From Dioscorea cayenensis subsp. rotundata (Eukaryota > Streptophyta > Magnoliopsida > Dioscoreales > Dioscoreaceae), in contig NC_052474.1 in assembly GCF_009730915.1 (NCBI RefSeq), positions 2,949,501-3,013,500 of the forward strand: a stretch of 64,000 nucleotides of DNA, in the 5' to 3' direction. The notes beneath the pieces were generated by a model. That model was given only the letters and a program-made list of their open reading frames with translations. It had not been told where the DNA came from and made no database searches. Shown here in pieces: positions 14,748-31,930 of the stretch. Within the stretch, counting starts at the first letter, position 1. Each line of letters starts with the position of its first letter. Both the position numbers and the translations under genes were made by a program.

Positions 14748-17700
14748 CTACTCCTCACCACTAGCCTGACCCACCTCAATCGTGGAAGTGGCCTCCATCC
14801 CCGCAGAATGAGGTCCAGCAAACTCTAAACTACGCCTGATAGAGGAGATAGGATCATCCAACTTCACTCTCAAGCCATCTGGAGCTGCAGAGAACCAAGA
14901 TAACATCAAATGAGCAGTCTTCTTCATGACAACAAGGGGTTTATCATATTTATCAGCAAAAATATAATCATTCCGCGTAAGCCAAATAGACCACACAAAA
15001 ACCTTTAACAACCCAATCGCCAAACCCCCGCACTGCCGGGTCAGTAAGGCGCCTCCAAACTACTCCATGAAAGGCCCATCGACGTGGGAAGATCGTAATG
15101 AGAGGGAACCCGCTGATCAGTGACCAAACTTCCCGGGAGAACTGACACTTTAAGAACAGATGGTCAACCGATTCAGCATCCAAATGACACAAAACACAAG
15201 TGTCTGTCGGCAGTCTATTACATATTCGTTTAGCAAGATTTTCCAGAGAAAGAATCTTGTTTTTCCAAGCAATCCAGTCAAGAATGTTAACCTTCCTTGG
15301 GTAGGGGCCTTTCCAAAACGAGTTTGCAAAGGGGCAACGCAGTCCTCCATCATTCAACAGACAGTAGAAGGATTTGACAGAAAAGAACCCATTAGCCGTC
15401 AGACCCCAAACTTTTAAATCAGTATCACTTCCCGTCACCACGTTTAACCTAGAGCAAAACTGCTTCACCCCGGGGTAATTCGCGAACGGTGTTCTCCCAA
15501 GTAACGACGGCAACTCCCGAACCGTCCCGTTAGGCGAAGGAGACGCAAAGAATTCTTTTGGCCAAGTGTACATCGGCGCAACGCCATTTAACCATCTATC
15601 CTTCCAGGAGAGTGCCGTAGAACCGTCTTTGATCTGAACCGATATACATCCCCTAAAAGCAGGGAGACAACGGGAGACCCCAGACCAAAAGAAAGAGACT
15701 CTCCCATTTGGACCCCTGAACAAGTCCCAAGTAGTAACATTATAGTTAAAGCGAAGGATCTTGGTTCCCCCCAGTGTGAATCAGTCAGGATTTTCCATCT
15801 CCATTTCCCCATCAAGGCCAAGTTAAAGGATGATAGCTCCAAGATACCCCACCCTCCTTGCTCCTTTGCTCGACAGATATTACTCCAAGCCATAAGACGA
15901 CAACCAGGGTGTTCAATGTTAGGACCAGACCAAAGAAAATCTCTTCTAATCCTATCAATTTCTTTGATCACCCACTTAGGTAACCGGTATAGAGACATCC
16001 AATATGTCGGCACCGCCAATAACACCGAATTGACAAGGGTGAGCCGTCCTCCAATAGATATATACGAAGAATTCCAGGAGGACAGACGCCCTTTGACTTT
16101 GGCAATCAAGCTTTCCCAGTCCTGGTTACGAGGTTTTCTACCCGAAACAGGTAAACCAAGATAGGTTACAGGGAGAAGACCCACCTCACAGTTGACCGTT
16201 TTAGCTTCGCTCATTTGAGGAAGTTGGTGCATATTCGTAGTATAAAGGCAAGTTTTGGAAAAGTTAGTTTCCAAGCCGGAAAGCCCTTCAAAAACCAGCA
16301 AAATCAACTTGATCACCCTAAGGTCTTCAGCTCCACCCACAGTCAAAACCAAAAGATCGTCCGCATAGTGCAGGTTGCGGACACAGCCCTGCTCACCCAA
16401 AGGCACCCCAATCAAAATTTTTGAGTTCAATGCATTGTTGAACATAGTGCACAACACATCTAAAACAAGCACAAAAAGCAAGGGCGACAGAGGTTCCCCC
16501 TGTCTCAACCCTCTTTGGTACCTAACATAACCACCAGGGGACCCGCTGATTAAGATAGAAGCTTTCGACGAGCTAAGAATAGAGGATATCCAACGTAACC
16601 AATTAGGTCCAAAATCCCTAACCTTCAGAAGCTCCAACAAGAAGTCCCAATCAACCGAGTCAAAAGCTTTCGCAAAGTCCACCTTGAGAATATGACCCTT
16701 CATTCTTCTTTTGTGTATGCTGAAAATTGTCTCCTCCACCATTGCAATATTATTCAGAATACACCTCTCTTTGAGGAAAGCAGATTGGGCGCGATCCACC
16801 AAGGAGTCCATCACCAAACTAAGCCTGGAAGCTAGAAGTTTACTAAGGATTTTCAAAGAGGAGTTAATAAGGCTTATGGGTCGATAATCCCCCGGATTGG
16901 ACGGACTTAAGACCTTAGGAATAAGAGCAATACAGGCCCAATTAATTCGTTCTAAGTTCGCCGTCCCCGTGTAGAAGTCCTGACAAAGTTGCATGATGTC
17001 ACCTTTGACAATCTCCCAATGGGACTTGAAGAAATGCATAGGAAAGCCATCCGGCCCTGGGGCTTTGTCACTTCCTAAGTCAAAAACTACTTTTTTCACT
17101 TCCTCCTAAGTAAAAGGCCATTCAAGGGAGGATAAGTCCACAAAGGATTTGTTCTTCAGAAGGTTACCGAGATCCACCTTGAAGCGAAAATTCCTTCTCT
17201 TACCAAAGAGATCCCTGAAGTGCTGTTCAAAGACACGACCAATGTCCCTGACATCAGTGAGTGGGCCAGAACCAACATTGATCGACAGGATAAAGTTAAT
17301 GTTTTTCAGCCCATTTGCCACTGCATGAAAATACCTCGTATTTTCATCCCCCTCCTTCAGCCATTGTAACCAGGATCTCTGCTTCCAGTAAACTTCCTCT
17401 TGTCTGCAAATTTCCGCTAAATTCTCCGTAATACCACGCTCCTGGATAATTTCCTCAGGAGTAAGACACCTAGATTCTTTGATGACATCAATCGACTCTA
17501 GATCATGTAACAACACCAGTTTCTGCAGTTTAATAGAACCAAAACTCTCTTTCGACCATCTTCAGAGCTGATCCCTAAGCCAAGCCAATTTCTTGGACAA
17601 TACGAAAGCACCACAACCATGGGGATTGGACCCAGCCCACCATCCGGATACCAGATCGGAGAATCTATCCACCGTCATCCAAACTTTCTCAAAACGGAAC

Positions 17701-18425
17701 AATATAGGTTTAGCACAATGCATCCCCACCTCAAGCCTGATAGGAACATGGTCCGATCCAAGCCTCGGAAGACAGTTTTGGATCAACCTTGGGAAACGAT
17801 CAACACAAGCCCTATTAACAATAAACCTATCCAACTTAACCTAAATAGGATTATCTTGCCCATTAGTCCAGGTAAATCTTCTCCTCATCGCCGGGGGTTT
17901 ATAGAGACAAAGATCGTGCATCAAGGTGTTCGCTTCACGAAGATCTGCTAAGTTCGGGTTTCTGCCCCATTTGTCCTCAGGCGAAAATATGGCATTAAAG
18001 TCTCCATAAATCATCCAAGGCACATCCGGATCACCACTACAACTCCTTAACTCATCCCAGAAAGTGCGTTTGAGATGCTGCACATTCGGGTCATAGACTG
18101 AGGTATACTGCCAAGAGAGGTTGTCCTTCTTAGAATAGAACTCGACTGTTAAAGAGAAAGTGCCTCTGCTAACCACCGTAACCAGGAGGACAACGCTATT
18201 CCATCCAACAATGATGCCCCCTGAAGTCTCCACTGAAGGAAGGAAGATAAATTTATTCAGTCTTGGTCCTCCAATCTCTCTCCACTTCATACCCGAAATA
18301 TCATCTAGTTTGGATTCTTGTAAACAACATACATCCGCAAAAAAAATATTCAAGAAATCCTTAACTAGAAAACGTTTCACAGGTTTACCCAGACCCCTAA
18401 CATTTCAAGATATAATATTCATTAA
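14748..18425 (-). pseudogene. LINE ORF2 remnant: endonuclease, reverse transcriptase, zinc-binding
   Basis: The start begins MNIIS, where a stop replaces the tryptophan of the usual NxxSWNVRG endonuclease motif. The endonuclease domain (18380-17562) shows QESK, YGDFNA and LGSDHVPI. Further in-frame stops fall near 17835, 17560 and 17105. The reverse transcriptase (17516-15588) shows GSDKAPGPDGFP, DFAKAFDSVDWDFL, GLRQGEPLSPLLF and the catalytic YADD at about 16356-16367. A frameshift near 15720 leads to the zf-RVT segment (15723-14968; C-x2-C then H and C in DTCVLCHL and VDHLFLKC). A stop near 15000 precedes the last piece (15023-14748). At least five lesions are visible, yet all domains are present in order, which suggests moderate age. 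Confidence 0.9.
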
Positions 18426-23984: not shown

Positions 23985-24401
23985 AGTTTGTGACACGTGT
24001 CACAATCGAGCGGGCTGAATGTTAACGGTTGAGATGTAATCAAGATTTGAGGCTCTACGTGTCAATATCTGAACCGTGCGAATGTTTTTCACGAAACAAA
24101 CGGTGGAGATACAATTTTAAGAGTTTATTTATTTATTTTCGTGAGGATGAAGGTGCAATTTTGGACATTTGATGCAGGTTGAAATTCTTAAGCTGGAGGA
24201 CACGTGTTGCGATCTAACAGTCCAAATTTATTATGAAAAGCAGTTGAGTTGTAATTAGTGAAGTGTTTATTTGGTAATTTCCAGGCTCTAGAAGGGTGAT
24301 GTGACACGTGTCTCAATCTTATCCGTCCAAATGTAATATAAATCACCGGCCTCCGGCCACCGCTGCTCAGTCCCAGAGAAATAGTTTAGTGTGTGTGTGT
24401 C

Positions 24402-24443
<42 letters not shown>

Positions 24444-24470
24444 CGAGAGCGTGAGCAATGGAGGAATGGG
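23985..24470 (+). promoter_or_regulatory. MIR168 promoter: four ACGTG modules and a leader microsatellite
   Basis: Four ACGTG-core motifs occur upstream of the hairpin: GACACGTGTC at 23992-24001 and 24303-24312, TACGTGTC at 24056-24063 and ACACGTGT at 24200-24207. Each is followed by a similar tail (a CAATC/GATC block, then GTCCAAAT/GCGAATGT), so a module of about 30 bases is repeated. A TATA-like AATATAAATC lies near 24336-24345. A TG then GA microsatellite (about 24390-24437) probably marks the start of the primary transcript. G-box/ABRE motifs fit the ABA responsiveness reported for Arabidopsis MIR168a. Confidence 0.65.
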
Positions 24471-24527
24471 GATTAGGGTTTCGTTTTGGTAGGCTGATGT
24501 GGTGTTTTAGGGTTTCCGGTGTCGCAG

Positions 24528-24625
24528 CTTGCTCGGATTCGCTTGGTGCAGCTCGGGAACGGCGTTGATCTGAGTTTGGTCGGCCGGATCCCGTCTTGCA
24601 TCAATTGAATCGGAACCAGTTTGTG
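24528..24625 (+). ncRNA. MIR168: MIR168 precursor hairpin
   Basis: The mature strand lies at 24539-24559: TCGCTTGGTGCAG, then C, then TCGGGAA. It differs from Arabidopsis miR168a only at position 14 (C for G). The star strand is at 24590-24610 (CCCGTCTTGCATCAATTGAA plus T). Pairing 24540 with 24607 through to 24557 with 24590 leaves two-base 3' overhangs at both ends, as DCL1 products have. Mismatches fall at mature positions 4, 14 and 15, with G-U wobbles at 3, 8 and 13. The loop is 24560-24589. miR168 guides cleavage of AGO1 mRNA and so limits the slicer of the miRNA pathway. A 35-codon frame from ATG 24458 runs through the mature strand; it may or may not be translated. Confidence 0.93.
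24539..24559 (+). ncRNA. miR168: Mature miR168 (position-14 variant)
   Basis: A 21-mer with 5' T, the first nucleotide preferred by AGO1. Positions 1-13 and 15-21 equal the common miR168; position 14 is C. Its star is at 24590-24610. Confidence 0.9.
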
Positions 24626-25160
24626 ACGATCTCTCTGAGTTTTATCATGGTTAATTTCATTGTGTTATTCAGTCCAAAGTTATGGCCTTTCCTCATGTTT
24701 TGTTTTGGTCTGATAAACGAGGTTCTTGTGTAGTTCTTGACAGGAATTTGGAGGATCATGTGCAGTTCGTGTCAGGAATTTGGAGGTTCTTGCGCGGTTC
24801 CTGAGAGGAATTTGAATTGCCGGAACTTGAATGCAGATTGGTGCTCTTGGTTCATTTCTTCTTTAGATCTTTTGCACCTTTAAATAATTGCTTCTGTCTT
24901 CTTCATTGTGCCGCAAGGTTGAACAGGGTTGCTTGGATGAATTAGGTTGATAGTATGAGAAAAAAAAGAAGCATTTTTTATCCCGCCCCTTGTGCGGGTT
25001 TACTCTTTTTTTTTTTTTAAGTTGCTTCCCTGGTTGAAGTTTTTTGTTTTTTAGTTGCTTCCCTGGTTGAAGCAGTTTGATTTGGTGTTGTGCAGATTAT
25101 CTGCGCTGGAAGTTGTGGTTCTTCAGCCTATTAATCCCTTGAATTTTAATTAAAAAACAG

Positions 25161-30395: not shown

Positions 30396-31858
30396 TCAGA
30401 GTACAGATAGCAGACGAGAAGGTGGTGGTGGTGGTGCAGTAATCTGATCACTGGTCATGTTCTCAATCTCCTTCACAAACCTATCCATTGCAGCGCTTGG
30501 CAAGCAAACAGGCACCACAATGCCATTCCTGAAAGGTACATAAAAGCTCACCAGTGGGATATCCCCAATCCCACCTTTCGCCACACTTCCATACACCGCC
30601 TTCCCCCACCCGAAGTCCACATTCTCAAGCCCAGCTCTTGTCAGGTCCGACACAAGATACGATTTCGCAATTGTGAAGTGAGGCCTCCCTCTCAGGACCA
30701 TCAAGTCCGCCACAGATTGCAGGTACTCACGTGTCATCCCCTGCGACTTGGCCTTCTTCACCAACTCCAACGCATATTCCACAGGTTCATTGCATAAGTG
30801 CTTCACCTTTGACACCGCCGTCGGGTATGTGAATGCGTTTCCATAGTACCCAATCGGCAGAAAATCCCCTTCCTTCTTTCCTCGAGCATTGACAATGCCC
30901 ATCATGCGCACCTCTTCCTCTGGCTCCAGCTGCAGCGCCATGGTTCGGCATCTCCACAAGCACGCTGTCAGTATCTCAAACGTCGAGCTCTTGCGTAGGT
31001 GTTCCGGCAAACGCATTCTCAGAGCTGAAATCTCCCTGGGACCGAAGTAGAAGGAACGGTGCGTTATGTCATCGGGTGGTGTGTTGATGGTGTTGTGGGA
31101 GTCATGAGGCATGTCTTCATCGTACTCACGGTGCTCGAACGTCACTCGTGGCGGATTGCGCGCCCTAAGCAGCTCTCTTGACCAGACTGGCAGCACTGAT
31201 GGCGCGGTTGCTCCCCGTGCCATCTCGGCCACTGCGTTCATGAACAGAGCCATTCCTGGTCCGTCCGCCATGGTGTGGTTAACCCGGAGTGCAAAGATGA
31301 ATCCTCCACACAACAATCGTGTCACCTGAATGCCCATATGCATGTACGTAAGTCTTTAAAACTAGCTAGTTTGGATCTTAATTATTTAAAATGATAGATT
31401 ATCCAGACAAACTGCACCTGAATCAAGAGCAATGGACAGTTAAGAACACCAGCAGAACCCTCAACGTCGAAGAGGAGCTCCTCCATGCATGGGAACGGTG
31501 GCTGCAGGTTGTCACCGAAATCCTGCAGGCGGACATTTGCATCAGCTTCAATGAACAACACCCCTTCACCGGTGCAGTTCACAACAAGCTTTCTTCCAGA
31601 CTCTTCCCGAAGACGGCCGGCAAAGGGATAGTAGAACACCAGAGCTCTCGCCAAGGCCTCTCTTATCACCTTTGCAGGATCAACGCCACTCATACATGGC
31701 TCGTTTCTGTAAAAGTGGATTAGAGGGATCTGGAACCTCAGGCTCTCCTGGTCATCGATGTCTGAGAGATACTTGAATTCGTGTGGTGTAGGCTTTGCCG
31801 GTGTTACTAGAACCGGCATCTGCCTCTGCACTGTGAAAACCAGAGGGGATGGTGCCAT
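30396..31858 (-). CDS. BAHD acyltransferase, benzyl alcohol O-benzoyltransferase-like
   Basis: Two exons, 31858-31418 and 31325-30396, joined in phase 0 by a GT-AG intron, encode about 456 residues, the normal BAHD length. The HTMAD motif (His164, Asp168) gives the catalytic base, and DFGWG is at about 384-388. [42 protein letters not shown] and [13 protein letters not shown] are typical of the clade V alcohol acyltransferases, such as benzyl alcohol benzoyltransferase and (Z)-3-hexenol acetyltransferase. These cytosolic enzymes transfer an acyl group from CoA to an alcohol to form volatile or defensive esters; the substrate cannot be read from sequence. The ATG at 31858 was preferred over 31870 by comparison with family starts. 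The C terminus has a proline run. A TATA box lies about 75 bases upstream. Confidence 0.92.
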
Positions 31859-31930
31859 TATTGATGACAAGTAGAATATTTTCTTAGTTTGTGGTTTGAG
31901 GTTTGAGGTTTAAGGTAGGAGAGCATGCGC

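Follow-up and report, generated by a model that had tools for sequence, protein, structure and literature searches.

A MIR168 locus of Dioscorea cayenensis subsp. rotundata whose predicted mature sequence carries C at position 14, the base that pairs with all three AGO1 sites found in the same genome

INTRODUCTION

The abundance of AGO1, the central slicer of microRNA pathways in plants, depends on miR168, which pairs imperfectly with AGO1 in the published sites compared. In Arabidopsis, either MIR168 locus can regulate AGO1, with MIR168a as the main supplier of miR168 (PMC2714465), and numerous abscisic acid-responsive-type elements (ABREs) have been reported in the MIR168a promoter (PMC4299684). 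A compensatory construct made for the second locus, 4m-MIR168b, retained the original mismatches (PMC2714465), and a repair of position 14 is tested in none of the available passages of the literature matches listed. In rice, miR168b has been printed as GCUUGGUGCAGCUCGGGA, with C at position 14 (C14), in a study whose known miRNAs were named via miRBase homology (PMC9138629). C14 thus has a precedent and is not new in the genome considered here.

Here, we describe a MIR168 locus with C14 in a stretch of 64,000 nucleotides (C4:2949501-3013500, hereafter the window), compare it with the other MIR168 loci of the genome, and score its predicted mature form against the AGO1 genes that the genome itself encodes. 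Contigs are abbreviated C1, C4, C5, C16 and C19, and C14 always denotes the base; the fourteenth contig is written in full.

RESULTS

A MIR168 hairpin with C at position 14

Scanning the window with the miR168 pattern, with any base accepted at position 14 and up to three mismatches allowed, yielded a single match (Table 1), against 0 in 100 shuffled windows, and the pattern had 0 matches in viral contigs. The C that the earlier note had read at position 14 is real, as base 24552 reads C. The mature sequence lies on the 5' arm and is nearly identical to miR168, agreeing with the Rfam consensus at 20 of 21 bases and departing from it at position 14. Under the Rfam covariance model for MIR168 (RF00677), the precursor scores 67.4 bits with a cut-off of 66, so that the locus clears the threshold only just. 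Folded as a 112-base hairpin it reaches -52.2 kcal/mol (z = -4.71; 0 of 200 shuffles equally stable), and the wider 201-base stretch gives a z of -2.51 (3 of 200).

The predicted miRNA/star duplex has 2-nt 3' overhangs and few mismatches, with the star ends (24590 and 24610) placed by analogy with ath-miR168a*. Mature positions 4, 14 and 15 have no partner in the hairpin, nor has position 21, which falls within the overhang. Two of these mismatches, C14.C24595 and U15.U24594, stand side by side and form a 2x2 internal loop, and the fold thus bears out the C-C mismatch next to a T-T mismatch that the earlier note had proposed. When G is placed at position 14 in the same fold, the energy becomes -56.3 kcal/mol, which means that C14 costs the hairpin 4.1 kcal/mol; processing of this weaker hairpin could be lower.

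The 5' arm, mature miRNA included, is crossed by a predicted 36-aa open reading frame, in which C14 gives an Ala codon (GCT) where G14 would give Gly (GGT). A 32-base unit (GAGGTTCTTGTGCAGTTCCTGACAGGAATTTG) occurs three times in tandem at 24719-24814, approximately 90 bases past the downstream end of the hairpin. Further features of the window are pieces of a LINE-type retroelement with reverse transcriptase and endonuclease-type domains (15591-18404, minus strand) and a BAHD acyltransferase-type gene in two open frames (30396-31909, minus strand; Pfam PF02458).

TABLE 1 Features of the C14 MIR168 locus and its upstream region, in window coordinates
Feature	Positions	Strand	Remarks
ACACGTGT element	23993..24000	.	
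ACACGTGT element	24200..24207	.	
ACACGTGT G-box/ABRE-type element	24304..24311	.	33 bases upstream of the TATA box; spacing equal at C16
TATAAAT, candidate TATA box	24337..24343	+	202 bases upstream of mature start; also at C16
Predicted 36-aa ORF (MEEWGLGFRFGRLMWCFRVSGVAACSDSLGAARERR) through 5' arm and mature miRNA	24458..24568	+	
MIR168 precursor hairpin	24521..24628	+	Rfam RF00677; fold z -4.71
Mature miR168, C14 form (TCGCTTGGTGCAGCTCGGGAA)	24539..24559	+	20/21 bases equal to Rfam consensus and C16 paralogue
Position 14, C in place of G	24552..24552	+	opposite C24595 in the hairpin
Predicted miR168* (CCCGTCTTGCATCAATTGAAT)	24590..24610	+	from pair table and likeness to ath-miR168a*
Star-side half of 2x2 internal loop	24594..24595	+	opposite U15 and C14

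Three MIR168-like loci in the genome

Across the 584,211,761 bases of the genome, the mature pattern with position 14 free and at most two mismatches occurs at 7 places, and the reversed control pattern at 0. The 7 places comprise three MIR168 loci, three AGO1 sites matched in antisense (on C1, contig 14 and C19) and C1:124634. The listing of all MIR168 loci that the earlier note had called for hence holds three MIR168-like loci, the window locus with C14 and two others with G14 (C16:23925290 and C5:24761700). An Rfam search of the genome at E <= 0.001 scored the C16 locus at 79.3 bits, the window locus at 67.4 and the C5 locus at 45.6, the last being below the cut-off; with 42 of 11073 first-look candidates scored, a diverged fourth MIR168 locus is possible. 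Two extra rows of this search are the reverse strands of the C16 and window loci.

The C5 locus, a MIR168-like hairpin at C5:24761601-24761737, has a long loop and a C21 ending, and TATAAAT lies 70 bases upstream of its mature start. The sequence at C1:124634-124653 (TCGCTTGGTACAGTTCAGGA) is 2 mismatches away from the miR168 pattern; Rfam detects no MIR168 hairpin there, and it is not spanned by any open frame of 50 aa or longer.

The window and C16 hairpins are 81.6% identical across 87 bases. Conservation is higher in the duplex, where 39 of 42 mature and star bases are kept, compared with 32 of 45 in the remaining hairpin (one-sided Fisher P 0.008). The three duplex differences are C14 and two star bases. 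Both changed star bases oppose mature bases that are unpaired in the C16 hairpin fold, and C14 is the only one of the three differences that breaks a hairpin pair. Since C16 keeps G14 and the window star keeps the C that would pair with G14, the simplest reading is that G14 came first.

Upstream of both hairpins we observe GACACGTGTCTC-ATCT followed by TATAAAT, at the same 33-base offset. Relative to the mature start, the G-box and TATA box are located at -235 and -202 in the window, and at -213 and -180 in C16. The window contains ACACGTGT four times, and three of these sites fall in the 546 bases that precede the mature start; a 3-kb stretch of the C5 locus contains none. In the region 23989-24336, three copies of ACACGTGT are each followed by an ATC-like stretch, and in two cases GTCCAAAT comes after; the copy nearest to the hairpin is, with the TATA box, common to the C16 paralogue. 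No gene-level synteny was seen between the 64-kb window and 100 kb at C16 or 80 kb at C5 (blastn, frames of at least 50 aa), the hairpin being flanked by 24.5 kb of the window to one side and 39.5 kb to the other. In this search the hairpin matched C16, and what else matched appeared to be pieces of retroelements and stretches that were short or repeat-like. At the same thresholds, the hairpin had no match in the C5 region.

AGO1 genes and their miR168 sites

Three AGO1 genes, on C1, contig 14 and C19, bear an in-frame miR168 site, as found by a search with N at position 14 that misses sites with more than two other mismatches. The frames across the sites read SVPELHQAT, PAPELHQAM and SAPELHQAT, and the sites are 1, 3 and 3 bases off a perfect complement of the C14 form. 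All three site-bearing exons pass the Pfam Gly-rich_Ago1 cut-off of 25 bits, scoring 67.9, 31.5 and 76.7. A search with PF12764 recovered two of the three known AGO1 genes and no others (5 of 5 candidates scored); the contig 14 copy was found via its miR168 site, and it is its own exon that passes the Gly-rich_Ago1 cut-off. Downstream pieces of the three genes align with one another, the C19 stretch compared stopping inside the gene, and the last downstream exon piece is one that we take, from its motifs, to be Piwi-type.

Position 14 faces a G at each of the three sites, namely the last base of a GAG (Glu) codon; C14 pairs with this G, and G14 and A14 do not. The earlier note had expected this pairing, and the G14 mismatch, from the Arabidopsis AGO1 site, and had named an AGO1 site unsuited to C14 as the finding that would speak against it; all three sites of this genome suit C14. 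The 19 bases of AGO1 site given in the note match the site of Brassica napus AGO1 in PMC9916703. The G-U pair that was to be left over at position 8 is absent, the base opposite being C in all three sites.

Pairing of the C14 and G14 forms

By RNAduplex, the C14 form binds the three AGO1 sites with -40.9, -39.4 and -39.1 kcal/mol, and the G14 form ending in A21 with -36.8, -35.3 and -35.0, so that the scoring of both variants suggested in the earlier note comes out 4.1 kcal/mol in favor of C14. Against the C1 gene, position 2 is the sole unpaired base of the C14 form (20 of 21 paired), and against the genes on contig 14 and C19 the unpaired positions are 2, 20 and 21. When each of the 63 possible single-base changes is made in the canonical 21-mer and the energy is averaged over the AGO1 sites, G14 to C brings the greatest gain (-4.1 kcal/mol), with G14 to U as runner-up (-1.7); this rank represents a single event and not strong statistics. 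G14 to C also comes first by an unweighted mismatch penalty, and second, behind C2 to U, when the penalty is doubled at positions 2-13. It is to this region 2-13 that target-prediction programs give most weight, and position 14 falls outside it (setting quoted in PMC6901925). These energies suggest that C14 would hold AGO1 mRNA somewhat more strongly than the G14 copies do. The stronger AGO1 control proposed in the earlier note would be a further step, against which stand the location of position 14 outside 2-13 and the 4.1 kcal/mol that the same change takes from the hairpin.

With up to three mismatches, the complement of the C14 form occurs at 11 places in the genome, and the reversed control at 0. 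The 11 places are the three MIR168 loci, the three AGO1 genes, C1:124634 and four more. Outside the MIR168 loci, only one place has at most two mismatches, and it is an AGO1 gene. C1:124634 and the four others, each with 3 mismatches, are in frames no longer than 85 aa and gave no Rfam matches.

G stands opposite position 14 in 7 of 7 distinct AGO1 sites (Brassica napus, two rice entries, maize and the three of this genome), a count that is not unbiased, as the four published sites were retrieved with patterns that mostly had GAG at the position-14 codon, one GAA form matching 0. At position 2, a G, which would pair, is found opposite in 0 of the 7. A C or U at the third base of GAG turns Glu into Asp, and therefore the G14 mismatch is not silently removable in AGO1; the same is true of the A14 mismatch, since its partner U likewise turns Glu into Asp. 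A C in the microRNA would mend the position-14 mismatch, where the AGO1 side would have to change its protein.

DISCUSSION

We consider the window locus to be a working MIR168 gene, paralogous to the G14 copy on C16, whose C14 form acts on AGO1 mRNAs, and give this reading a probability of about 0.6. We infer that the locus is transcribed, processed and loaded as follows: RNA polymerase II would transcribe the locus from the TATA box at 24337, a DCL1-type enzyme would cut the hairpin and release a 21-nt miR168 with C14, this miRNA, with its 5' U, would be loaded into AGO1, and AGO1 mRNAs would be sliced at the (V/A)PELHQA-coding site. A working gene is indicated by the Rfam score above the cut-off together with a stable hairpin with 2-nt overhangs, by a duplex that is kept better than the remaining hairpin in the comparison with C16, and by the promoter core common to C16, with three of the four ACACGTGT sites upstream. 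Action on AGO1 is further favored by the pairing of C14 at all three sites, by the first place of G14 to C among the 63 changes by energy, and by an AGO1 gene being the sole match to the C14 complement with at most two mismatches outside the MIR168 loci. Against this reading count the hairpin pair broken by C14, the narrow Rfam margin (67.4 versus 66, with C16 at 79.3), the position-2 change that beats C14 under the position-weighted penalty, and the two G14 loci, which may supply most of the miR168.

The 2x2 loop that C14 opens, at a cost of 4.1 kcal/mol, and an Rfam score 12 bits under that of the C16 copy would also suit a weakly expressed, relaxing paralogue, in which C14 is neutral and fits AGO1 by chance, with C16 and C5 doing the work. 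One of the two Arabidopsis MIR168 loci indeed yields most miR168 (PMC2714465). We hold this to be possible but doubtful, as the duplex bases are kept at 39 of 42 versus 32 of 45, the promoter core is retained, and the two star changes oppose mature bases unpaired in the C16 fold. An origin of C14 in an old monocot MIR168 lineage, by common descent with rice miR168b, would be compatible with a working C14 gene. The rice miRNA shares C14, its miRBase entry ends in A21 like the window copy, and four coding stretches of the window have a third-position GC of 0.54-0.76, which fits a monocot; the first three bases of rice miR168b are AGG, versus UCG at the window locus. This descent nevertheless appears unlikely to us, given that C16, a paralogue sharing the promoter core, has G14 and that the window star retains the C for G14, which places C14 most simply after the duplication. 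An error of sequencing or assembly behind the C at 24552 is highly improbable: a single assembly was examined and the window has 1000 N elsewhere, but an error would need to fall among the one or two of 63 changes that are best for AGO1 pairing, and to produce the very base known from rice miR168b (PMC9138629).

If the window locus is a working C14 gene, AGO1 feedback might, as a tentative extension, come in two grades, with the mismatched G14 form from C16 and C5 as one and the C14 form as the strong setting, as in rice miR168b. Because AGO1 cannot remove the mismatch without a protein change, the strength of the loop would then be settable on the microRNA side. The presence of matched and mismatched forms in one genome provides a natural test of whether the mismatch is kept for soft feedback.

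Comparison with known miR168 systems

The earlier note held that most annotated miR168 sequences have G or A at position 14. A G14 or A14 form is indeed found in each of the literature matches listed; a C14 form exists in rice miR168b. In the main texts of open-licence papers, neither the exact 21-mer TCGCTTGGTGCAGCTCGGGAA nor the star CCCGTCTTGCATCAATTGAAT was found, and the C14 core appears only in the rice study (PMC9138629); the U14 form and the rice form that starts with AGG are not among the matches listed from these texts. Rice miR168b shares C14 with the window locus, and is tied to OsDET1 and OsCP1 in that study, the main text of which contains no word beginning with AGO1 or argonaute (PMC9138629).

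Within the same genome, the C16 locus has a hairpin 81.6% identical to that of the window and an equal G-box-TATA spacing, and differs in having G14, a canonical star and an Rfam score of 79.3 bits. Arabidopsis MIR168a and MIR168b belong to the same family as the window locus, with 20 of 21 mature bases equal. The window star has T at its fifth base, like ath-miR168b*, and equals ath-miR168a* as printed in PMC2714465 at 19 of 21 bases. In its ABRE-type promoter elements, the window locus resembles Arabidopsis MIR168a (PMC4299684). However, both Arabidopsis loci give G14 (PMC2714465), which in the AGO1 site of the related Brassica napus is opposed by a G, whereas the window locus gives C14, which pairs with the G in the AGO1 sites of this genome.
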